NCBI GenBank assembly: GCA_019115385.1
Contig: DXDR01000074.1
Span: 1-48,015, forward strand
DNA: 48,015 nt
Reading direction: 5' to 3'
DNA from: Candidatus Mediterraneibacter avicola
GTDB taxonomy: Bacteria > Bacillota > Clostridia > Lachnospirales > Lachnospiraceae
This document shows, piece after piece, positions 37,800-48,015 of this stretch. The translations under genes and the position numbers were made by a program. The notes below the pieces were generated by a model. The model saw only the letters and a program-made list of their open reading frames with translations, did not search any database and was not told the DNA's origin. Positions within the stretch are counted from its first letter, which is position 1; each line of letters begins with the position of its first letter.

Positions 37800-38771
37800 T
37801 TACCACTCAAACAGGCTTGCCGCCCAGGTAAGCCCTGCACCGAATCCTGCCATCATGATCTTCTGACCTTTTCGGAACATCCCTTTTCGGTTCATCTCAT
37901 CAATGAGGATCGGCACAGTCGCCGCGGATGTATTTGCATACTCCTCGAGGTTCATCGGGAATTTCGAGATATCTGTCTTCAGTCTCTTTGCAACTGCCTC
38001 GATGATCCTGCGGTTTGCCTGATGCAGAACAAAATAGTCGATCTCGTCAAGCGAACATCCCGCCTCTTCCAGAACTTCCTCTATGATCTCCGGGACTTTG
38101 CGGACGGCGAACTTAAATACGCCCTGTCCGTCCATGTGAATAAAGGACTCTTTCACAGCCCCTTCTTCCAGTTCCTTCTCCCAGCCTTTGCGGTGTCTGC
38201 TCAGGCCTGTCAGCGCCGGTCCCTTTACGCCGTCCGAGTGGGCTGCCATGTACACCGGATCCCCCTCTTCGGCACGTAATAACACTGCTCCTGCTCCGTC
38301 GCCGAACAGGATACATGTGCTCCTGTCTGTCCAGTCGATCATGTTGCTCATGCTGTCGGCCCCGATCACCATGACTGTCCTGCAGAATCCCGCGCTTATA
38401 TACGCCTGTGCAGTGTTATAGGCGAGCACGAATCCTGTACATGCCGCATTTAGATCATATCCGACCGCATGTGATGCACCGATCATCTTCTGAACCTCAC
38501 ACGCGGCGCAGGGGAAGACTATCTCAGATGATGACGTTGCCACCAGGATCATATCAATCTCTTCCGGATCGATCCCGCTCTGTTCCACGGCACGGAGAGC
38601 CGCCTGCCCTGCCATGCAGGAGGTTGTCTCTTCCTCAATGATATGCCGCTTACCGATGCCGGTTCTCTCTCGTATCCAGGCGTCGTTCGTGTCCACGATT
38701 TTTGACATATCATCGTTGTCCATCACCCGCGCCGGAACGTAAGAGCCGGTTCCACATATTTTTCCAACCAT
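37800..38771 (-). CDS. fabH: 3-oxoacyl-ACP synthase III FabH
   Basis: A 323-residue initiating condensing enzyme. The catalytic Cys is in [13 protein letters not shown] (~residue 112), His in [12 protein letters not shown], and Asn in [12 protein letters not shown]. It condenses acetyl-CoA (or branched primers) with malonyl-ACP. It is first in the operon; 5' of it is a ~200-nt leader that contains one copy of a 164-bp repeat and the FabT-controlled promoter. Confidence 0.96.
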
Positions 38772-38796
38772 TTCTATTCTCCAAATCTCTCAGATT

Positions 38797-38960
38797 GTGA
38801 CAGTTCAGCCTGCACCATTCGTAAAGCCGCACTTCACGCTTATTGCGGCTGACGCCGCTGTTTTACTCATTGACAGGCGCTCATCTCATCTGATCATCAG
38901 TCGCCGGATTCTTATGCAAGCATAAATCCGTCTTCTGATGTCAGATGGCTGAACTATTAC
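38797..38960. repeat. 164-bp repeat, left copy, in the fab operon leader
   Basis: The element begins GTGACAGTTCAGCC and ends GGCTGAACTATTAC, itself an imperfect palindrome, and is ~80% identical to the reverse complement of 39057-39220. Internal GCATAA-type stems are shared. It lies between the fab promoter and fabH, so it is transcribed. Confidence 0.85.
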
Positions 38961-38982
38961 ATAAAATTACTTTGAGTCTTAA

Positions 38983-39026
38983 ATACTTTGACTTTCAAAG
39001 TATATCACACTAAAACCATTTGTCAA
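38983..39026 (-). promoter_or_regulatory. fab operon promoter with FabT-type operator
   Basis: On the minus strand TTGACA (39021-39026), 16 nt, TATACT (38999-39004). The perfect palindrome ATACTTTGA-N3-TCAAAGTAT (38983-39003) overlaps the -10 and matches the TTTGA...TCAAA core of FabT boxes. A half-site TTTGAGTC lies at 38971-38978. Binding here would block RNA polymerase. Confidence 0.85.
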
Positions 39027-39056
39027 TATACATTTGTAATAAATATGTAACATTTG

Positions 39057-39220
39057 GTAACAGTTCAGCCATCTGACGCCAGTTGTCAGATTTATGCTTG
39101 CATAAGAATCCGGCAACTGGCAGTCAGATGTGCTGAGCGCCTGTATATGAGCAAAGAAGCGGCGTAGCCGCAGTTAGCACGCGAGTGCGGCTTTGCGAAT
39201 GGCGCGGGCTGAACTGTTAC
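39057..39220. repeat. 164-bp repeat, right copy
   Basis: It runs GTAACAGTTCAGCC to GGCTGAACTGTTAC, nearly perfect at its ends, and is the inverted relative of 38797-38960. An internal nested stem includes TTATGC-AA-GCATAA and CAACTGGC/GCCAGTTG. It also lies just past the chromate transporter operon, where it may act as a terminator. Confidence 0.85.
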
Positions 39221-39254
39221 CATTTAACACTGAAGCCAAACATGCGGCACATGC

Positions 39255-39818
39255 CTACAACGACAGAACGGATACCCCCGCTTTCACCACCCCCGCAAGC
39301 ACCATGACAAGGATCGGGTTCATCCTGAATTTCCGAAGCAGCACAACACACAGCACAAATATCGCAGCCAATATCCAGTTGGTCCCCGCAAGCGAGATCA
39401 GCTCCGCGCTTCCCCAGAGCGCTGTAATAAGTACGGAAATCCCTGCAGATGCGATCATCGCCACCACCGCCGGGCGCAGGGAATTCAGGATTCCCTGAAG
39501 CATATGCATTCCCCGGTATTTCATGTACAGCTTCGCGATCATCAGGACGATAATGCAGGACGGCAGGATACATCCCGCCGTTGACACCAGAGCTCCCGGT
39601 ATCCCGGCGATCTTAATTCCCACGAAAGTAGCCGAATTTATCGCGATCGGTCCCGGCGTCATCTGAGAGATCGTGATCAGATCCGTAAATTCTGCCATGC
39701 TCAGCCAGTTATGCATAGAAACGACCTGTTCCTGAATCAGAGGCATTGCCGCATATCCGCCGCCGAAGCTGAACAGCCCGATCTTCAAAAATCCCCAAAA
39801 AAGTTCCAGGTAGATCAT
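39255..39818 (-). CDS. Chromate transporter family protein, C-terminal-half subunit
   Basis: A 187-residue membrane protein of the CHR family (short form). LFWGFLKIGLFSFGGGYAAMPLIQEQVV is the diagnostic GGGY motif and TPGPIAINSATFVGIKIAG the second. Short CHR proteins work as pairs equivalent to the two halves of ChrA. The substrate may be chromate, sulfate or another oxyanion; a gut anaerobe's natural substrate is unclear. It overlaps its partner by 4 nt. Confidence 0.88.
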   Translation of the reverse strand: MIYLELFWGFLKIGLFSFGGGYAAMPLIQEQVVSMHNWLSMAEFTDLITISQMTPGPIAINSATFVGIKIAGIPGALVSTAGCILPSCIIVLMIAKLYMKYRGMHMLQGILNSLRPAVVAMIASAGISVLITALWGSAELISLAGTNWILAAIFVLCVVLLRKFRMNPILVMVLAGVVKAGVSVLSL

Positions 39819-40381
39819 CTCTTATTTCTCCTCTCATTTATCAGGGTCCGCACAACACCGATCAGCAGACATGCGATCACAATGCAGACAACGTTAACAT
39901 CAAAGATGCAAGATGCGGCAAATGCTCCAAGCATGATAAGGACAGAACCGGTATTTTTACTCCGTACGATCCCCTCCCCCATATCGAACACAACCGATGC
40001 AATAACCGCTCCCACGCCCGCCTGCATCCCTTCGAGAAGCTGCGCAATTATATAGTTCTCCCGAAATGCATTGTAGAACAGCGAAATCAGTGCGATGATA
40101 AGAAATGGTGGTATGATCGTTCCCGCGATTGAAACGAACGCACCTGTCACTCCTGCCAGTTTATATCCCACGACGATCGCACCGTTAACTGCGATCGCAC
40201 CGGGAGACGACTGTGCGATCGCCACCAGATCAAGCATTTCATCCTCCTCGATCCAGTGATATTCGTCCACAAATTTTTTCTTCATAAGCGTCACGATCAC
40301 ATAGCCGCCGCCAAATGTAAATGCACTTAGATACAAAGTAGACAGAAACAGTTTTGATAAAACCTTTTTTTTATTCTTCAT
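39815..40381 (-). CDS. Chromate transporter family protein, N-terminal-half subunit
   Basis: A 188-residue CHR-family short protein: LFLSTLYLSAFTFGGGYVIVTLMKKKFVDEYHWIEEDEMLDLVAIAQSSPGAIAVNGAIVVGYK. FGGGY and SPGAIAVN repeat the partner's motifs. It is first of the pair, with a promoter at 40422-40450 facing a divergent LysR gene. Confidence 0.88.
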   Translation of the reverse strand: MKNKKKVLSKLFLSTLYLSAFTFGGGYVIVTLMKKKFVDEYHWIEEDEMLDLVAIAQSSPGAIAVNGAIVVGYKLAGVTGAFVSIAGTIIPPFLIIALISLFYNAFRENYIIAQLLEGMQAGVGAVIASVVFDMGEGIVRSKNTGSVLIMLGAFAASCIFDVNVVCIVIACLLIGVVRTLINERRNKR

Positions 40382-40421
40382 GTTCTCTCCTTATCCAGCT
40401 GATCAGATTTCTCCGTTCCTA

Positions 40422-40465
40422 AGTATATCCGCACTTGATTCATATGTAAAATAGTATTATTCTAT
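40422..40465 (-). promoter_or_regulatory. Chromate transporter promoter with LysR-like site
   Basis: TTTACA (40445-40450), 17 nt, TATACT (40422-40427) on the minus strand. ATAG-N7-CTAT (40451-40465), a T-N11-A-type dyad, sits right upstream of the -35, between the divergent genes. Confidence 0.6.
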
Positions 40466-40504
40466 AAAATATATAATATTTTTCTTATAAGTGAGGGTTC
40501 CGAT

Positions 40505-41389
40505 ATGACACTCCGGCATATGAGGATATTTATAGCAGTTTTCCAGAAAAACAGTATCACAAAAGCAGCGCAGGAATTACATCTGGCTCAGCCGTCTGTC
40601 AGTCTCGCCATCCGGGAACTGGAAGATTATTACGGCATCCGCCTTTTCGACCGGATCGGCAGACATATTGCCGCTACTGAATGCGGCGGCGAATTCTACG
40701 AATATGCGGTTCACATAGTTTCGCTCTATGATGAAATGGAGAAAAAGATGCGCAACTGGGATGTCTTCGGCACGCTCCGTGTAGGTGCAAGCATCACGAT
40801 CGGTACTCATATTCTCCCGATCCTGATCCGTAACTACCAGAAGAGTTTTCCTGCGCTCACAGTCGAGGCCAAGGTAAACAAGTCATCTTCTGTAGAAGAG
40901 GCTCTCATACACAGCGAGATAGATCTCGGGCTGATCGAGACACAGCCGTCACATCCCGATCTGCGCGCTGTACCGTTTATGAAGGACAGCATGTGTGCCA
41001 TCGTACCGCCATGCCATCCCCTTACCACTGAAAAAGCTGTATCTCTCGCAGAGCTGGCGCACTTCCCTTTTCTTATGAGAGAGAAAGGCAGCGCAGGACG
41101 CGAACTGCTTGACGCCGCATTCTCCCTGCAGCAGATCACAGTCTCCCCCAGATGGGAGAGCACGAGCACGCAGGCGCTTGTAAAAGCTGTTGCTGAAGGC
41201 CTTGGTGTGTCAGTCCTTCCATATCTCCTCGTGAAGAAAGATATCGGGGAAGGCACCGTGCAGCAGATTCCTCTCGAACAGCCAATCCGCAGAGATCTGA
41301 ATATCATTTATCACAAGAGCAAATTCCTGACGGATAATATGAAATCATTTATAGAACTTTGCAAAAAATACGGGAAGTCTGTTGGTTAG
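40505..41389 (+). CDS. LysR-family regulator, divergent to the chromate-type transporter
   Basis: A 294-residue LysR-type regulator. MTLRHMRIFIAVFQKNSITKAAQELHLAQPSVSLAIRELEDYYGIRLFDR is the winged helix-turn-helix; residues ~90-290 are the effector-binding domain. Divergent orientation from the CHR pair across a 123-bp intergenic region with a LysR dyad suggests it controls the pair and itself. Its TAG stop lies within the terminator hairpin. GAGGGTT precedes the ATG. Confidence 0.9.
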   Translation: MTLRHMRIFIAVFQKNSITKAAQELHLAQPSVSLAIRELEDYYGIRLFDRIGRHIAATECGGEFYEYAVHIVSLYDEMEKKMRNWDVFGTLRVGASITIGTHILPILIRNYQKSFPALTVEAKVNKSSSVEEALIHSEIDLGLIETQPSHPDLRAVPFMKDSMCAIVPPCHPLTTEKAVSLAELAHFPFLMREKGSAGRELLDAAFSLQQITVSPRWESTSTQALVKAVAEGLGVSVLPYLLVKKDIGEGTVQQIPLEQPIRRDLNIIYHKSKFLTDNMKSFIELCKKYGKSVG

Positions 41390-41398
41390 ACTTCCCGT
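41370..41398. terminator. Bidirectional terminator between lysR and the HAD gene
   Basis: ACGGGAAGTCT and AGACTTCCCGT form an 11-bp stem. T-rich tails follow on both strands (TTTTG on plus, ATTTTTT on minus). The 5' arm is inside the LysR coding sequence and the stop codon falls at the loop edge. Confidence 0.85.
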
Positions 41399-41410
41399 TT
41401 TGCAAATCTT

Positions 41411-42124
41411 CTATATTGTTTCAATAAATTTCAGCAGTTCATCAAGTGTTCCCATATACTCTGCATCGATCGGCAGATTCTTTTTATTCTCCATCGTGTC
41501 TGTCACCAGATATGTCTTTACTCCGAGCGACCTGATTGAAAGATCTTCTGCCACATCGTTGCCCACCATCAGGCACTCTGAGGGATCCAGACTGAACTCT
41601 TCCAGAATCCCCCGGAAGTATTCCGGATTTGGCTTACAGTATGTACACGTCTCATAAGTCGTGATCACTTTGAAATCCTCTGCGTCAAGCCCTGCCCAAC
41701 GGATGCGGTTCATAGTTGCACACCGCGGGAATACCGGATTAGTTGCAAGATATGTCTCAAATCCTCTCTCTTTTGCTCTCTTTACGATCTGATTCGACAC
41801 AGGATTCGGCTTTGTAGTGCATATCGCCTGATTGAACTCATCCGCGTAAAAATTCAGAGCGATCTTCTCAGATTCCTCTGTCGAGATCGGAAGTTCCGGC
41901 TCTATATAGCTCCAGAAAGCCTCCCGGTTTGTGCAGCTCCCGTCATTCTTCACCATCGCTTCGTATCCGGCCCATACTGCGCCGATAAATTTTTTCGGAT
42001 CAAGCGATACCCCTGCATTCATATACGATTTTGCCAGAAGGGGCATATAGAATTTCACAAATTCATCCTGCACCATAGGCAGCAGCGTACCGTCCAGATC
42101 AAATAAAATATGCTTTATACTCAT
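41411..42124 (-). CDS. HAD-superfamily hydrolase
   Basis: A 237-residue haloacid-dehalogenase-like phosphatase. Motif I is LFDLDGTLLPM (nucleophile Asp), motif II Thr is in YLATNPVFPR, and motif IV is GNDVAEDLSIRSLG. The cap has YADEFNQAIC. Likely a phosphoglycolate- or nucleotide-type phosphatase, but the substrate is not inferable. It lies 10 nt after the BFD-like gene in one transcript. Confidence 0.88.
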   Translation of the reverse strand: MSIKHILFDLDGTLLPMVQDEFVKFYMPLLAKSYMNAGVSLDPKKFIGAVWAGYEAMVKNDGSCTNREAFWSYIEPELPISTEESEKIALNFYADEFNQAICTTKPNPVSNQIVKRAKERGFETYLATNPVFPRCATMNRIRWAGLDAEDFKVITTYETCTYCKPNPEYFRGILEEFSLDPSECLMVGNDVAEDLSIRSLGVKTYLVTDTMENKKNLPIDAEYMGTLDELLKFIETI

Positions 42125-42134
42125 ATCTGCACGA

Positions 42135-42329
42135 TTATCCCATCATAATTTCTGAGATAGCATCCATGATCTTGTCATGACATCCGCCGCATCCCGTAGA
42201 ACAGTGTGTAATTTTCTGAACCTCATCAAACGCCGAAAGAACATCGTCAAATTTTTCCATCTGATGCAGAGCATTCTCTACATCTGCATAGGATACCTGC
42301 TTGCAGTTACAAATCATTCCTGTACTCAT
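42135..42329 (-). CDS. BFD-like [2Fe-2S]-binding protein
   Basis: A 64-residue protein with four Cys: MICNCKQVSYADVENAL and HCSTGCGGCHDKI. The C-x-C ... C-x(2-5)-C-x2-C pattern is that of bacterioferritin-associated ferredoxin domains (Fer2_BFD). Free-standing copies are common in Clostridia and probably shuttle electrons or Fe-S clusters. It is first of a two-gene operon with the HAD hydrolase. Confidence 0.85.
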   Translation of the reverse strand: MSTGMICNCKQVSYADVENALHQMEKFDDVLSAFDEVQKITHCSTGCGGCHDKIMDAISEIMMG

Positions 42330-42404
42330 TATTTTTTCTCCTTCCTCTTCATCAGTTTATCGGATAAAATTATTACCGAATCCCAATACTTTTCGTCCGT
42401 TTTC

Positions 42405-42433
42405 ATTATATAGTTTTGTCCCTGTAATGTCCA
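42405..42433 (-). promoter_or_regulatory. Promoter of the BFD-like/HAD operon
   Basis: TGGACA (42428-42433), 17 nt, TATAAT (42405-42410) on the minus strand, 75 nt upstream of the start. The rest of 42330-42624 holds this promoter and the next terminator. Confidence 0.75.
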
Positions 42434-42478
42434 GAGCGTATTTAACGCTTTATGTCTATAATGATCCCCACAGGAAAA

Positions 42479-42505
42479 GAAGCCAGTTCCTGCTGAACTG
42501 ACTTC
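42479..42505 (-). terminator. Terminator of the surface-protein gene
   Basis: GAAGTCAGTTC-AGCAG-GAACTGGCTTC on the minus strand, an 11-bp stem with one G-U or mismatch, followed by TTTTCC. Confidence 0.7.
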
Positions 42506-42624
42506 CTTCCACCTCATTACATTTTATTCTGCGCTCTATGTAGCGACTTCATAGTTAAAGGGATTCTTTGGCCCCCACTCCGGATCTGGGTCCGATCAAT
42601 TCTCTCTTTCGCGCCATTCGCGTA

Positions 42625-45600
42625 TCACTTTCTTATCTTCCTGAAAGCCAGAGTTCCTGCCGCAACGCAAAGCGCAACACCCGCCATTATAAAGTACAGC
42701 ATAACATTCGTCATATCTCCGGTTTTCACGGCCTGATCCTGTCCTGCATTATCTTTTCCCGCAACATTATCTTCTCCTGCAGCATCGTCCTGTCCGGAGT
42801 CAGTTCCATCTGTTCCAGTTCCTCCTGATCCGTGTCCACCATCCGGTATTGTTGAATCATCCTTAAAGGTTACTTCAATCGTATGGTCAGACGTTACATT
42901 TTCAAAAGTATATGTTCCAATACCATTTTCATCAACGATACCGGCAAGTTCTACTGCCTGTCCGTCAACCTGGATTTCTGCAATGCTGCAGCCATCATTC
43001 GGTATTATAACAAAACTCTTATCAGCTCCTTCACCTACGATCACACTGCCAGACGGAGTAATAGTTCCACCATTACCGGCTGAAGCTGTAATCGTATATG
43101 CAGTAGTCTGCCATACAACTGCAAATGGACTAAATCCGGCCCGCTCGGTATCGAACTTGATACCCGCATCGGTAAATTCTGCTTCCATTGTCTCAAGTTC
43201 ACAGGCAACGATAGCCTCTTCGACTTCTGCCTGTCCTGAAATACCATATTCACGATGCAGATCCTTATAGTGGATAACCTTGACGCCAAGCTGTTCTGCA
43301 GTGTCCTTGGTCACACCTTCCGGATATGGAAGATATACTGTGGCGCCGTAACTTGCAGACACCCAGGCGTTGCCGTTGTAGGCATCAACAAGATCGAGAT
43401 AATGGAAGTCGTAGCGGTAGGCCTGGCCCTCACCAGGCGCACCCAGGAAATCTACAGCCTTCTGCTCCATCAGCTCCTGACGTCCATCACCAAGGTTGGT
43501 CAGCAGATCGTCATCGAGCAGCCTGATTCCCTCAGCACCCACTTCGCGAACTGTTTCGTCGTTGGTATAGAACTTCGTGGGCCAAATAGTGGGGCTGATG
43601 CTGTTCTCTTTTGCAATCGCCACCGCATGCCCAACAGCCTCGGTCGGCTCTTCAGTCAGAAGCTCATACGTCGTTTCGCCGCGCTGAGTCTCGTCCACGT
43701 TCTCGATGTAGCGCACAATAAGCGTGCCGTCCTCAAACTCGGGGTTCACGTCGTTGCCGTTGATGCGCACCTCGGGAGCAGGCTCATCCTTCCAGTCAAG
43801 AGAAACCGTGTACTCGCCTGGCCTGGCATCGGACTCAACCGGGTTCCCCCGTTCGTCAAGATATGTGACCTCAAGGAGATCGATAAGCGTGCTCTCATAG
43901 GTAACGCCGTTTGCCTCGTCCTCAGCAACCGGCTCGCCGTTAACCATCATTGTCTCGATTTCGTCAACCGAGTTGTACATCGTGATTGCCGGGAATCCGC
44001 CGTCATCATAAGTCTCATCACCCTGGCCGCCACCGGTATAAATGGTGGTGTCGTCAGCAGAAAGCGTGTACTCAGCGTTATTGAAAAGCATGACCACGTA
44101 CGGCTGCCCTGGAGTCAGGCCCTCAAGCGAAATGGGAACCCAGGTATCGTTCTCAACTTCCGAAACTGTCACAGATGCGTCGTCCAATGGAGCCCCGCTT
44201 ACATCAACGGGCATATAGGCAACAAACAGTCCCGTCTTTCCAGGAGTGGAAAGGGGATCGAAACTAAACGAGTATTCAGACGCATCAGGCTGGATCCACA
44301 GACCCGTGCTTCCAACTGCCTTCCAATCACTATGCTGCCCGGCGACACCTGCCTTGAGAGCATTTACTGCGTCGGGCGTAGCACGCCCGAGATTTACATC
44401 GGCATAACCCTCAGGAAGCTCGACGGTGCCCGCGCTCACGCGCACCCGGCGTTGTTCGCCTAAAGTCCCCGCGCCAACATGCACATACTCGTATCCGGCC
44501 CCGCCGTTCTGTTCTGCAACCGCATACCCGCCAGAAGCGCTGATCTGCGTGCTGTTGTTACCGGAAATCGTGCCGCCGTTAATCTCGACAAGCGACTCTC
44601 CAGCAACCGTATAAGAAATTCCATAGCTGCCGTTATCGGTGATCGAGCCGCCGTTCATGATGAACTCGACACCCCTCCAGGAGGTCTTGCCGCTGACTTG
44701 AACGCCAGCGCCCGAGTTGCGCGCAATCTCTCCACCATTCATGGTGACAAGCGATCCGTTGTTCACGCGAATACCTAAGCCAGTGTTGTCAAGGATCTTG
44801 GCAGTGGGCTCGATGGTGCACTCGGGACGGCCACCTCCCTGGTTGACCATGTAAATCATGCCGCTCGAGGCGGTGTTGTTCTGAATGGTGCCCCTGATGA
44901 TGTACTTCGTGCCATTGCTCGAGTACAGAAGACCTCCGGCATTGTTCGACGTACAATTTTCAATTACGCCGTTCTCGCCCAACTCGATGGTTCCATACCA
45001 CGAGTAGAGCAAACACGCGGGACTCGAAGTGCAGTTCGAAATCGTACCGTCGAAGAGCACCTTATGGGAATAATCCTGACCCAAATCATCGAAGTACAGA
45101 AGCTTAAACCCATTGACATTGGAAATCCGCGAACCGCTCTCTGCGGTGAAATTGCAGAATTGTGTCCAGATAGCGGAATTGTTGCCTGCATTTTCTCCTG
45201 TAACACCGTTGATGCTGCCAGATAGTGCAGCGGAAGCGCCGCCACGCAGATGGACAGCAACGCCATTCTGGCCCTGCCAGGAGTCGGTATCACCCTTGAT
45301 ATTCTGAATGGCGCCACCGATAGCGGCGTACCCACTGTCAGCGTAAATTGCGCGGCCAACCATAGGGCTGTCGGCGCTCAGACCGCCGATGATGGAACCC
45401 TGCTCCATGGTGATGGTGCCGCCCTGCAGCCACACGGCGCCGGCTGGGCCAAAGCTGCCGGTCGCACCCTTGTCGCGATCGGCCACCGAATCGTCGATGA
45501 TCTGGCTTCCACTCTGCATGATAAGCTCGCCACTGGACAAGCGCACGGCGCACATTCCGCCATAATTTTTAAGCACGGCGCCCTCCCCGAGCGTAATAGT

Positions 45601-46254
45601 GCCAACACCGTTATAGGTGGCAATCATTCCGTCCTGCACGATGTTTGTGTTCGGAACCTCGTTCTTTCCGACAGTCGTATGGCCGTCGCCTTCGGAATCA
45701 GCCTGAACGAAGTATTCACCCTCATGAATCCCGCCATCATCAAGGACGATGTTGGTCAGGGTAAGGGAGGCAGTACCAGGACCCGCCGTGCTGTCAACCT
45801 CGATCATGGCAGGATTGTACGTAGAGCGCGCAGCATCCTGCTGCTGCGCAAAGTTCTCGCCACGCGTAAGCGTAAAAGGCCCTCCCTCTCCGCTTGTGAC
45901 AGTAAGGTTCTTACCATAATACCGGGCCGATTTCGTCATCGTAAGATCGCTCATCACATAAACGGTTGCACCGTCTTTCGCTACATCGACGGCTTTTGCT
46001 AAAGTTGCTACCGGGCTTTCCTGCGTTCCCGCTCCGCTTTCATCATTTCCTGCCGCAGATACATATACCACTCCTAAGGTATTTGCCTCAGCAGCTTGTG
46101 TTTCCACCTCTTTCTCTGCCTGTACAGCAATGCTGTTTTTGCTGGCTTTATCCGACGCTTCTACATCTTCTGCCTCTGTTGCCGCCACGACTCCCGCATT
46201 TCCCATTATCAGACAGCCTGCCAGAAGAAGCGCTGCTAACTTCCTCATTTTCAT
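42625..46254 (-). CDS. Large phase-variable surface protein with beta-helix-like region and wall-anchor-type C-terminus
   Basis: A 1,209-residue exported protein. ATG 46254 has AGGAGG 8 nt upstream; a farther ATG (46362) lies inside the invertible segment and is rejected. Signal peptide at residues ~1-25. Residues ~80-620 contain repeated short N/G-rich strands (NGGSITDNGSYG, NGGEIARNSGAG) typical of right-handed parallel beta-helices. After ~620 come Ig/carbohydrate-like domains. Residues ~1055-1130 resemble a B-repeat-type domain (GNGGTITPSG). An Asp/Gly linker and a final KTGD, hydrophobic helix and RKIRK tail suggest wall or membrane anchoring, though no strict LPxTG is present. Likely an adhesin. 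Middle codon use is GC-rich and unlike its ends. Confidence 0.88.
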   Translation of the reverse strand: MKMRKLAALLLAGCLIMGNAGVVAATEAEDVEASDKASKNSIAVQAEKEVETQAAEANTLGVVYVSAAGNDESGAGTQESPVATLAKAVDVAKDGATVYVMSDLTMTKSARYYGKNLTVTSGEGGPFTLTRGENFAQQQDAARSTYNPAMIEVDSTAGPGTASLTLTNIVLDDGGIHEGEYFVQADSEGDGHTTVGKNEVPNTNIVQDGMIATYNGVGTITLGEGAVLKNYGGMCAVRLSSGELIMQSGSQIIDDSVADRDKGATGSFGPAGAVWLQGGTITMEQGSIIGGLSADSPMVGRAIYADSGYAAIGGAIQNIKGDTDSWQGQNGVAVHLRGGASAALSGSINGVTGENAGNNSAIWTQFCNFTAESGSRISNVNGFKLLYFDDLGQDYSHKVLFDGTISNCTSSPACLLYSWYGTIELGENGVIENCTSNNAGGLLYSSNGTKYIIRGTIQNNTASSGMIYMVNQGGGRPECTIEPTAKILDNTGLGIRVNNGSLVTMNGGEIARNSGAGVQVSGKTSWRGVEFIMNGGSITDNGSYGISYTVAGESLVEINGGTISGNNSTQISASGGYAVAEQNGGAGYEYVHVGAGTLGEQRRVRVSAGTVELPEGYADVNLGRATPDAVNALKAGVAGQHSDWKAVGSTGLWIQPDASEYSFSFDPLSTPGKTGLFVAYMPVDVSGAPLDDASVTVSEVENDTWVPISLEGLTPGQPYVVMLFNNAEYTLSADDTTIYTGGGQGDETYDDGGFPAITMYNSVDEIETMMVNGEPVAEDEANGVTYESTLIDLLEVTYLDERGNPVESDARPGEYTVSLDWKDEPAPEVRINGNDVNPEFEDGTLIVRYIENVDETQRGETTYELLTEEPTEAVGHAVAIAKENSISPTIWPTKFYTNDETVREVGAEGIRLLDDDLLTNLGDGRQELMEQKAVDFLGAPGEGQAYRYDFHYLDLVDAYNGNAWVSASYGATVYLPYPEGVTKDTAEQLGVKVIHYKDLHREYGISGQAEVEEAIVACELETMEAEFTDAGIKFDTERAGFSPFAVVWQTTAYTITASAGNGGTITPSGSVIVGEGADKSFVIIPNDGCSIAEIQVDGQAVELAGIVDENGIGTYTFENVTSDHTIEVTFKDDSTIPDGGHGSGGTGTDGTDSGQDDAAGEDNVAGKDNAGQDQAVKTGDMTNVMLYFIMAGVALCVAAGTLAFRKIRK

Positions 46255-46306
46255 GTATTCTCTCCTCCTCTTAATTTCTTGCAGCATATTTTCGGTTTGC
46301 CCGAAA

Positions 46307-46331
46307 ACCACATAATTTACCTTATGTGGTA
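46307..46331. repeat. Left inverted repeat (IRL) of the invertible segment
   Basis: 25 bp, with core CCACATAATTTACCTTATG. It is a perfect inverse complement of 46585-46609. Each IR is itself nearly palindromic (CCACATAA...TTATGTGG), typical of tyrosine recombinase core sites. It lies 53 bp from the surface-protein start. Confidence 0.92.
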
Positions 46332-46422
46332 TTGCATCGTATTTTCTGCAATGTAACGGCATGAAAATGACATTTCTTCTTCCACTGAAAACGAACAGAT
46401 CAAAAAGGGTAAACTAAAGAAA

Positions 46423-46450
46423 CCTTTTCTGTATTTTCCGAGAGAAAAGG
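46423..46450 (-). terminator. Hairpin inside the invertible segment
   Basis: CCTTTTCT and AGAAAAGG form an 8-bp stem. On the minus strand the tail is TTTCTTTAG, so in this orientation it could stop recombinase read-through into the surface gene. After inversion it would lie behind the promoter. Confidence 0.5.
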
Positions 46451-46516
46451 CTTATTTCGCACGCTTAAAATTATTAAAGACTTTCTAAAAATCACCAAAA
46501 ACCATGATTCGCTTTG

Positions 46517-46545
46517 TTGACACTGAAAAAACCATGAGCTATACT
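46517..46545 (+). promoter_or_regulatory. Near-consensus promoter inside the invertible segment
   Basis: TTGACA (46517-46522), exactly 17 nt, TATACT (46540-46545), plus strand. It points toward the 3' end of the recombinase gene, away from the surface-protein gene. No promoter of comparable quality was found in the opposite orientation. Confidence 0.88.
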
Positions 46546-46584
46546 ACAACTAAGTAGCTTTTTTTATGTACAACTGCTTATATC

Positions 46585-46609
46585 TACCACATAAGGTAAA
46601 TTATGTGGT
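46585..46609. repeat. Right inverted repeat (IRR) of the invertible segment
   Basis: 25 bp, inverse complement of 46307-46331 (core CATAAGGTAAATTATGTGG). Its last base is also the last base of the recombinase stop codon (46609-46611 on the minus strand), so inversion leaves the recombinase intact. Confidence 0.92.
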
Positions 46610-47454
46610 CATATAATCAATCCAAGCTTATCTATTTTCCGGCTGTGTTCTCCACTTGAAGTAATAATATATATTCGTGTCGTATTGATATTGGTATGCC
46701 CTAAAATATCCGCCAGTTTTGCAATATCTTTATCCGTTTCGTAAAAACATTTTGCAAATAAATGCCTCAAATTATGAGGGAATACTTTCTTTTCAACCAC
46801 TCCTGCCTTTGCACATAGTGCTTTCATCATTTTCCATATATTAAAACGATCCAGTGGTCTTTGATTTCTTGTTACAAAAATCGGCCCAGTGCATATCCGT
46901 CTCTGCCCCATATATGTTTTCAGCCGTTTTTTTAATTTTCCTGCAATCAGGATTATTCTGGTCTTTCCTTTTAACCGGACGACAGCTTCCCCACAGGCAA
47001 CCGCCTCCGCTGTAATATACTGCAATTCTGACACTCGAATACCTGTTCCGCAAATTGTCTGGATTATCATAGCCAGTTTCTCATTGCCCTGCTTTCTGGC
47101 TGTATTTACCAACATCTGATACTCCCGTTTCGACAGTTCGCGCTCTTTTGGACAATACGCTCTTTTTTGGATACTGATCTGCCTGATCCTCAGATCTTTT
47201 CGTCCAATATACTCAAAAAAACCATTCAGTGCCGCAATTTTAGTATTAACACTGCTTGGCTGATACTTTTGCTGCATATCTTTCTTGTAATCAATTACAT
47301 CCTCTTTCGTTACCGCGCTCTGTTTCATTTCCTCTATAAATTTCCCTATATCCCTCTGATATTGTTTTCTCGTTTGCTCACTTCGCTCCATCTCTTTCAG
47401 AAACTGCATGTATTCTTTCAGTTTCAACCTCATTGTTTTTTTATTCATCTTCAT
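46609..47454 (-). CDS. Tyrosine recombinase, predicted DNA invertase of the adjacent switch
   Basis: A 281-residue phage-integrase-family recombinase. The N-terminal SAM-like DNA-binding domain (residues ~8-95) precedes the catalytic domain with Arg in GTGIRVSEL, Lys in RLKGKTRIILI, HxxR in HNLRHLFA, His in LGHTNINTT and the nucleophile Tyr in TRIYI. All catalytic residues are present. AT-rich codon use differs from neighbours. The gene ends at IRR; recombinases adjacent to inverted repeats and surface genes usually act as site-specific invertases. A GACAGGG/CCCTGTC stem (47480-47507) lies in its leader. Confidence 0.93.
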   Translation of the reverse strand: MKMNKKTMRLKLKEYMQFLKEMERSEQTRKQYQRDIGKFIEEMKQSAVTKEDVIDYKKDMQQKYQPSSVNTKIAALNGFFEYIGRKDLRIRQISIQKRAYCPKERELSKREYQMLVNTARKQGNEKLAMIIQTICGTGIRVSELQYITAEAVACGEAVVRLKGKTRIILIAGKLKKRLKTYMGQRRICTGPIFVTRNQRPLDRFNIWKMMKALCAKAGVVEKKVFPHNLRHLFAKCFYETDKDIAKLADILGHTNINTTRIYIITSSGEHSRKIDKLGLII

Positions 47455-47479
47455 AAACCGCCTTTCTGCCTAAAACGCC

Positions 47480-47507
47480 GACAGGGTAATCCTCCTCTCT
47501 CCCTGTC
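47480..47507. promoter_or_regulatory. Leader hairpin of the recombinase gene
   Basis: GACAGGG and CCCTGTC are separated by 14 nt that include an AGAGGAGG-like stretch on the minus strand, ~25 nt upstream of the recombinase start. A stem here could influence recombinase expression. The rest of 47508-47625 shows no clear promoter. Confidence 0.4.
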
Positions 47508-47625
47508 AACTTTCGCCTTTTATTTTTCTATGCAGGAGGAAACTCTATACTCTATTCTGACGGTTTACTTCTACTTTTTATACCAGATTTGTACTTTCTT
47601 GTATATAATTCACACTATCGGGGGT

Positions 47626-47717
47626 AATCACCGGAAGTGGCAAAAGGCACATTCCGGAATTGTAAGCGGTCGCCAAGGTCTCGGGCAAGCCCGGACTTTG
47701 GCTCGTCGCCGATACAA
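47626..47717. repeat. 92-nt structured repeat, copy 2 (next to the tRNA genes)
   Basis: Second copy of the double-hairpin element at 14936-15027, in the same plus-strand orientation, with about 7 substitutions, mostly in loops or at weak pairs. It lies immediately downstream of the tRNA terminator. Confidence 0.8.
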
Positions 47718-47720
47718 AAA

Positions 47721-47746
47721 AAGACTGAAACAATCGTCTCAGTCTT
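47721..47746 (-). terminator. Terminator of the tRNA operon
   Basis: AAGACTGA and TCAGTCTT form an 8-bp stem (imperfect loop) followed by a T-run (TTTTTTTG) on the minus strand, just 3' of tRNA-Leu. Confidence 0.85.
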
Positions 47747-47755
47747 CTCATCTTA

Positions 47756-47841
47756 TGCCGCAGACCGGAATCGAACCGGTACGGGTATCACTACCCACGG
47801 GATTTTAAGTCCCGGGCGTCTGCCAGTTCCGCCACTGCGGC
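47756..47841 (-). tRNA. tRNA-Leu (anticodon UAA)
   Basis: An 86-nt class II tRNA with long variable arm. The acceptor stem is GCCGCAG/CTGCGGC, discriminator A; anticodon loop ACTTAAAATC gives TAA; T-arm is GGTTCGATTCC. CCA is not encoded. It follows tRNA-Asp on the minus strand, 44 nt apart. Confidence 0.96.
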
Positions 47842-47885
47842 AGCTATAAAATTGAATTTCTCTCATCATAATATGATAAGAGAAA

Positions 47886-47959
47886 CGACCCAGAAGAGAC
47901 TCGAACTCTCGACCTCCGCCGTGACAGGGCGGCGCTCTAACCAACTGAGCCACTGGGCC
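47886..47959 (-). tRNA. tRNA-Asp (anticodon GUC)
   Basis: A 74-nt tRNA. Acceptor GGCCCAG/CTGGGTC, D-loop AGTTGGTTAGA, anticodon loop CTGTCAC gives GTC, T-loop GTTCGAGTC. CCA is not encoded. It is first in the tRNA-Asp/tRNA-Leu pair on the minus strand. Confidence 0.96.
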
Positions 47960-48015
47960 TTGCTATTCGCACTTACGTGCAATGCATTACATGCCGACAT
48001 TTTTCGCGAATATTT

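Follow-up and report, generated by a model that had tools for sequence, protein, structure and literature searches.

A probable recombinase-driven invertible promoter, captured OFF, at a large surface-protein gene of Candidatus Mediterraneibacter avicola

The window analysed here is a 48,015-nucleotide stretch of contig DXDR01000074.1 from Candidatus Mediterraneibacter avicola, whose genome assembly comprises 2.58 Mb in 98 contigs. On its minus strand a tyrosine recombinase gene is followed by a repeat, a short segment, a second repeat, 52 nt and a gene for a likely surface protein (Table 1). The recombinase stop codon and the right repeat have one base in common. Neighbouring genes, named by eye, include a HAD-type hydrolase and a LysR-type regulator, along with tRNA-Leu and tRNA-Asp.

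Table 1. Positions of the genes and predicted elements of the switch in the window.
Feature	Position	Strand	Remarks
Surface-protein gene, 1,209 aa from the likely ATG	42625..46254	-	signal-peptide-like start, repeat-rich ectodomain, KTGD + hydrophobic segment + RKIRK tail
Likely ribosome-binding site AGGAGGAGAG of the surface gene	46260..46269	-	sequence
Target-proximal inverted repeat	46307..46331	.	core 46307-46330 = ACCACATAA-TTTACC-TTATGTGGT; 24-nt core identical in G020
Predicted invertible segment, 253 bp	46332..46584	.	bounded by the repeats; flip seen in other cassettes only
Mid-segment hairpin, possible terminator	46420..46453	-	-9.5 kcal/mol; shuffle mean -3.7, shuffle minimum -8.1
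Sigma-70-type promoter TTGACA-N17-TATACT	46517..46545	+	motif match; hexamers kept in G020
Recombinase-proximal inverted repeat	46585..46609	.	plus-strand core 46586-46609 = ACCACATAA-GGTAAA-TTATGTGGT
Tyrosine recombinase gene, 281 aa, presumed dedicated invertase	46609..47454	-	Pfam Phage_integrase + SAM-like N domain

A first-pass annotation of this DNA reported perfect 25-bp inverted repeats around a 253-bp spacer, and the window sequence confirms them at the positions given: the two 25-nt repeats are 100% complementary and lie 253 nt apart. The longest perfect inverted repeat found within 2 kb in 30 first-order Markov controls of the window is 15 nt. Direct reading and comparison with relatives resolve each repeat into a 9-6-9 site, consisting of ACCACATAA, six bases and TTATGTGGT, in which two 9-bp inverse arms flank the asymmetric centre TTTACC. 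Two inverse arms around an asymmetric centre are the usual core site of a tyrosine recombinase. The locus thus has the make-up of an inverton, with inverted repeats around a short promoter-bearing segment.

The recombinase open reading frame is intact, and its product scores 82.9 bits against Pfam Phage_integrase, where the cut-off is 27.1. Residues R140, K164, H227, R230, H253 and Y262, which we take to be the catalytic residues, are invariant across the three paralogs of the genome, and profile and full catalytic set together identify a tyrosine recombinase of the Phage_integrase fold. The enzyme stays below the NCBIfam cut-offs for the equivalogs XerA (146.9/220), XerD (130/329.6) and XerC (119.6/335.15), and a profile of the three paralogs places XerC-like and XerA structures at the top of the PDB matches (4a8e, 5hxy). 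The window cassette itself shows no sign of being phage-borne; the best phage match is 41.5% identical and the best plasmid match 51.7%.

The promoter described by the annotation, TTGACA-N17-TATACT aimed away from the surface gene, is present. TTGACA (46517-46522) and TATACT (46540-46545) are separated by 17 nt on the plus strand and score 11/12; when the spacer was randomised 1000 times, 9 copies held a match this good or better. Scanned for promoters as a whole, the 3-kb region yields three against a shuffle mean of 4.6, which is no excess. As assembled, the segment is OFF: its promoter points into the recombinase gene at the 3' end. Inversion by arithmetic moves the -10 element to 46371-46376 and the predicted start to about 46364. 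This would aim the promoter at the surface gene, as the annotation had proposed; the distance from the predicted start to the likely ATG (46254) would be about 110 nt rather than about 115 nt.

The mechanical open reading frame of the surface protein starts at 46362, and a signal-peptide-like start with AGGAGGAG upstream gives the shorter product in Table 1. It is a likely surface protein, and its sequence suggests that it would be exposed on the surface; the earlier description of it as giant is generous for 1,209 aa. Glycine-rich repeats are accompanied by a weak InlB-B-like repeat (E 0.048, under the cut-off); no Pfam match is above cut-off, and a search of the PDB by sequence gave no useful match. 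AlphaFold modelling of residues 90-724 from a two-sequence alignment (mean pLDDT 64.4, pTM 0.69) yields mostly short regular strands. Foldseek finds no PDB match for this low-confidence model at E <=0.001, and the top weak match is the adhesin PfbA (E 0.002, TM 0.25 by query and 0.33 by target). The weak matches are mostly what we take to be parallel beta-helices, and a beta-helix is the likely fold as modelled.

The whole unit is present in a second genome of the same genus, G020, OFF as in the window and with a recombinase 66% identical. Both 24-nt cores are identical to those of the window, the segment between them is shorter (155 vs 255 nt), and both promoter hexamers are kept although much of the segment has diverged. 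The surface-protein homolog, identical at 539 of 1234 aligned positions, passes the InlB-B-like cut-off (24.1 vs 23.6 bits). When window positions 38001-48015 are compared with 14 kb of G020, long matches are confined to the cassette and surface genes, so the parts of the unit stay together in different surroundings. Surface-protein matches at E 1e-20 occur in 7 of 58 genomes of the genus; those in the window genome and G020 are nearly full length, and the five others cover 200-350 residues only. A recombinase match at E 1e-60 or better is found in 19 of the 58, own genome included. Among the 28 genus loci that were read, which overlap the larger set of relatives below, 24 have at least 300 nt downstream; a site pair is present in 20 of these 24 and absent in 4.

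One scan of genome contigs confirmed 329 relatives of the recombinase, the best 80 of which were studied. Among these best 80 of 329, 69 extend 300 nt or more downstream; a first pass found a perfect repeat of at least 15 nt in 63 of the 69, and three of the six others have imperfect pairs. The addition of the window locus, G020 and two further cassettes of the window genome (C69 and C28, described below) gives 84 entries, 11 of which end at a contig edge within 300 nt downstream. In the 73 readable entries (best 80 of 329 plus these four), sites defined by their arms form an inverted pair 3' of the recombinase in 69. This definition also replaced the first-pass repeat pair of L062, which was wrong. 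Four entries have no arm-motif pair: L039 has no site, L053 and L077 have one site, and L049 carries a 29-bp repeat with other arms. The first site is visible in 9 of the 11 contig-cut entries, and the remaining 2 have <=20 nt. The 69 paired entries fall into 57 clusters at 90% recombinase identity and are therefore not all independent. As a control, 77 stretches 5' of the recombinase contain one site in 6 cases and two sites in none.

The centres of these sites follow a strict rule. Wherever a locus holds two or more sites scoring 15/18, the centre is identical within it (67/67), and the arms differ between the sites of one locus in 41. Fifty distinct centres occur among the 67 loci, none of them palindromic, and the centres differ within each of the six genomes, own included, that have at least two cassettes in the set. 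Since strand exchange across the centre requires such identity, the sequence by itself pinpoints where crossover takes place. These observations bear on the possibility that the repeats serve otherwise, by chance or as a mobile-element end, and that the recombinase is unrelated to them: recombinases of the Phage_integrase fold also integrate mobile elements and relatives lie on a few plasmids and viral contigs, yet the site pair beside 69 of 73 recombinases, the invariably matched centres and the flipped pairs described below leave this explanation a very slim chance.

The position of the promoter is also regular in the family. A score of at least 10/12 is reached in 48 of 69 segments vs 10.7% of 1380 shuffles, and in 56 of 62 family promoter calls the exit site lies 14-53 nt beyond the end of the -10 element; in the window this distance is 40 nt. 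Without a position rule 51 segments are OFF, 14 ON and 4 undecided. With the rule 47 of 56 callable segments are OFF and 9 ON, and 13 of the 69 have no promoter call at the expected place. Counted by cluster, 35 are OFF only, 6 ON only and 3 both, one of the last, L044/L058, being a miscall; as a flip this pair is ruled out, since its segments align on the same strand. The OFF majority in assemblies could be due to selection, culture or a biased enzyme. Contig ends fall within 300 nt 3' of the recombinase in 11 of the best 80 of 329 relatives and within the same distance 5' in 3 (p 0.047). This hints that assemblies contain both orientations, but contigs might equally be broken by long repetitive targets.

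The likely targets of the relatives are diverse. For each switch the longest open reading frame with its start in the following 1.5 kb was taken as the target, though the first gene may be another one; 19 of 61 were scanned, and 15 of the 19 have a Pfam match at E 0.001. The matches include proteins of the beta-helix, leucine-rich-repeat, Ig/LPXTG and S8/SLH kinds, a solute-binding protein and a pilin-like N terminus. Also among them are GGDEF/EAL enzymes, two chemoreceptors, a BTAD regulator, an acyltransferase and, under its cut-off, a filamin match.

Sequence comparison shows inversion in other cassettes of this kind, one of them in the window genome itself. C69, whose enzyme is 59% identical to that of the window, has 22-nt repeats with arms similar to the window's and the centre TCTGCC, and its target, a secreted-protein-like gene named by eye, is interrupted by the contig end. 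C28 (enzyme 57% identical) shares the window's arms in its 24-nt repeats, has the centre CGGAAG, and precedes an Rrf2-like gene and a secreted-protein-like gene, again named by eye. Both are OFF by promoter direction. The 277-nt C28 segment, repeats included, is 100% identical on the opposite strand to that of L025, a record of Candidatus Mediterraneibacter intestinipullorum (genome G001), within collinear flanks of 6176 nt at 96.3% and 421 nt at 99.5%. Likewise, the 293-nt segments of L061 and L065 are 99.7% identical on opposite strands, with flanks of 1589 nt at 99.6% and 1449 nt at 99.4%. More distant opposite-oriented pairs are L029/L031 (segment 82%, flanks 79%) and C28/L023 (81%). Taken together, these pairs show that cassettes of the window kind flip. 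For the window segment no inverted copy was found in 146 genomes, own included, where only the own genome and G020 matched; in the genome of L025 the two strongest matches to the window recombinase are 58 and 57% identical, and there is no close ortholog. As a separate matter, the near-identical contigs of L061 and L065 are binned as Gastranaerophilales and Fournierella, so the binning of one or both must be wrong.

The best reading of the window locus is the one first put forward, a recombinase-driven invertible promoter captured OFF, and it draws on homology more than on the window locus. It is supported by the inversion of the paralogous C28 and of L061/L065, by the recurrent gene order, by the site structure and by the promoter position. 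The locus is thus very probably a self-contained phase-variation cassette for a large surface protein. From the sequence we infer that the enzyme acts on the window sites, that the window segment inverts and that the promoter is active. The recombinase would bind the 9-bp arms of both sites and exchange strands at the 6-nt centre. With two asymmetric centres of the same sequence facing in opposite directions, the predicted product is an inversion. In the ON orientation the promoter would read across the left site into the surface gene from its start near 46364, and in the OFF orientation it would enter the recombinase gene antisense, at its 3' end.

Two other explanations deserve consideration. 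The better of them, though improbable, treats the segment as a leader or terminator whose orientation sets read-through after transcription start instead of the aim of a promoter. The available text of a C. difficile flagellar-switch paper suggests Rho-linked control after transcription start (PMC7446863). Recombinase and target are co-directional here, as this explanation would have it, and among the 16 of 69 segments examined several have mid-segment hairpins, that of C69 being strong (z -4.40) and those of C28 and L061 being more stable than any shuffle in one direction or both. This is countered by the regular promoter position in the family and by the hairpins themselves: the whole 91-nt stretch around the window hairpin is weak (z 0.69), none is found in the recombinase direction in the G020 segment, and those of L020 and L023 are no better than shuffles. 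A terminator as a fixed part of the segment is only a possibility.

Less probable still is a dormant switch, with its parts intact and the segment fixed OFF in the window lineage. Such a state would fit the OFF orientation of both the window and G020 and the preponderance of OFF segments in assemblies (47/56), but it sits poorly with the perfect repeats, the open recombinase frame, the hexamers kept in G020 despite segment divergence, and the flipped paralog of the window genome.

A comparison of the cassette with known systems places the predicted invertible promoter among established devices. Invertible promoters with nearby recombinases, such as fim, have long been known (PMC9993118, PMC11868660, as available). 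As described in the available part of PMC9993118, E. coli fimE-fimS-fimA resembles the window in its tyrosine recombinase and in a 314-bp promoter segment in inverted repeats that connects or disconnects the target; fim inversion also makes or breaks the link between fimE and its terminator. In contrast, fim uses two recombinases with IHF, Lrp and Fis, and 9-bp repeats; the likeness drawn here is one of layout. A candidate window counterpart of the phase-dependent fim terminator is the weak mid-segment hairpin. Clostridial invertible segments include the C. difficile RecV switches and Cdi7, the latter with an adjacent recombinase, and other Clostridia segments lie near signalling and chemotaxis genes, like some targets of the window family (Sekulovic et al. 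2018, PMC5903667, in the text available). RecV inverts or affects several genomic sites, as described in the available text of that paper, whereas in the window family each switch has its own neighbouring enzyme.

The closest published counterpart is inverton group 139 with invertase group 35, reported by Jin et al. 2025 from the hCom2 gut community (PMC11892184; all that follows on it is from the available text). This group holds 33 invertons, 32 of them from class Clostridia, and nearly all adjoin a tyrosine-type recombinase or integrase. By the printed coordinates, the Clostridium sp. D5 example has 26-nt repeats with 205 nt between them and the Intestinimonas example 14-nt repeats with 227 nt. 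Passage changes the orientation, and that of the Intestinimonas example changes with surface attachment as well. Class, adjacent tyrosine recombinase and spacing fit the window family, which probably belongs to group 139 / invertase group 35, as compared by layout and size, not repeat motif. The 6-nt centres, the genus Mediterraneibacter and the window protein are not described in the available text of that paper. The suggestion that the combination may be undescribed is right in part only, since this Clostridia group with adjacent tyrosine recombinases is published. Among the papers listed in the literature search, with most subscription papers outside it, none has both 'Mediterraneibacter' and 'inverton', and none treats the window protein or strict centre identity with private centres in the window family.

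These results predict ON/OFF behaviour for a large surface protein in a gut lineage that has received little study. Pairs of ACMACAKAA-N6-TTMTGTKGT 3' of a recombinase provide a signature with which to seek switches in Clostridia genomes without reads, and the likely targets of the relatives extend from surface proteins to chemoreceptors, c-di-GMP enzymes, a regulator and a pilin-like protein. With their private 6-nt centres, the sites may form a naturally occurring collection that recombines without cross-reaction. More speculatively, and with the odds somewhat against it, widespread Clostridia cassettes 'barcoded' in this way, each with its own promoter segment, near-alike arms and a private centre, might flip independently, with the antisense OFF promoter biasing them towards OFF.

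Several minor observations accompany the analysis. The window contains one other long perfect inverted repeat, 26 nt in length and intergenic (38903-38928 / 39089-39114). With a 16-nt pair nested inside it, the stretch 38903-39222 resembles a long palindromic hairpin element, and Rfam at gathering scores gives no match to it. The 6-nt centre is polar in the recombinase-proximal copy of the site: with all centres read in a fixed sense with respect to the recombinase, T is at position 1 in 56 of 67 loci and A/G at position 6 in 58. Extra direct site copies with the same centre lie downstream of the recombinase in 19 entries (e.g. L055, L060, L079, L087, L089 and L050), spaced 33 to 86 nt apart and about 40-44 nt in many; these could allow deletions or give spare sites. 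Four loci lie on viral contigs, two of which (L141 and L142) have a site pair; the repeat of L143 is 21 nt long and differs in its arms, and L144 ends 6 nt after the match. In L142, a phage-like contig, a tail-fibre-like gene, the recombinase, the site pair and a gene for a zinc-ribbon-like protein are seen by eye. The viral-contig record L141 carries mobile-element-like genes, and its cassette precedes two genes that by eye are DNA-methyltransferase-like, possibly a phase-variable methylation system.
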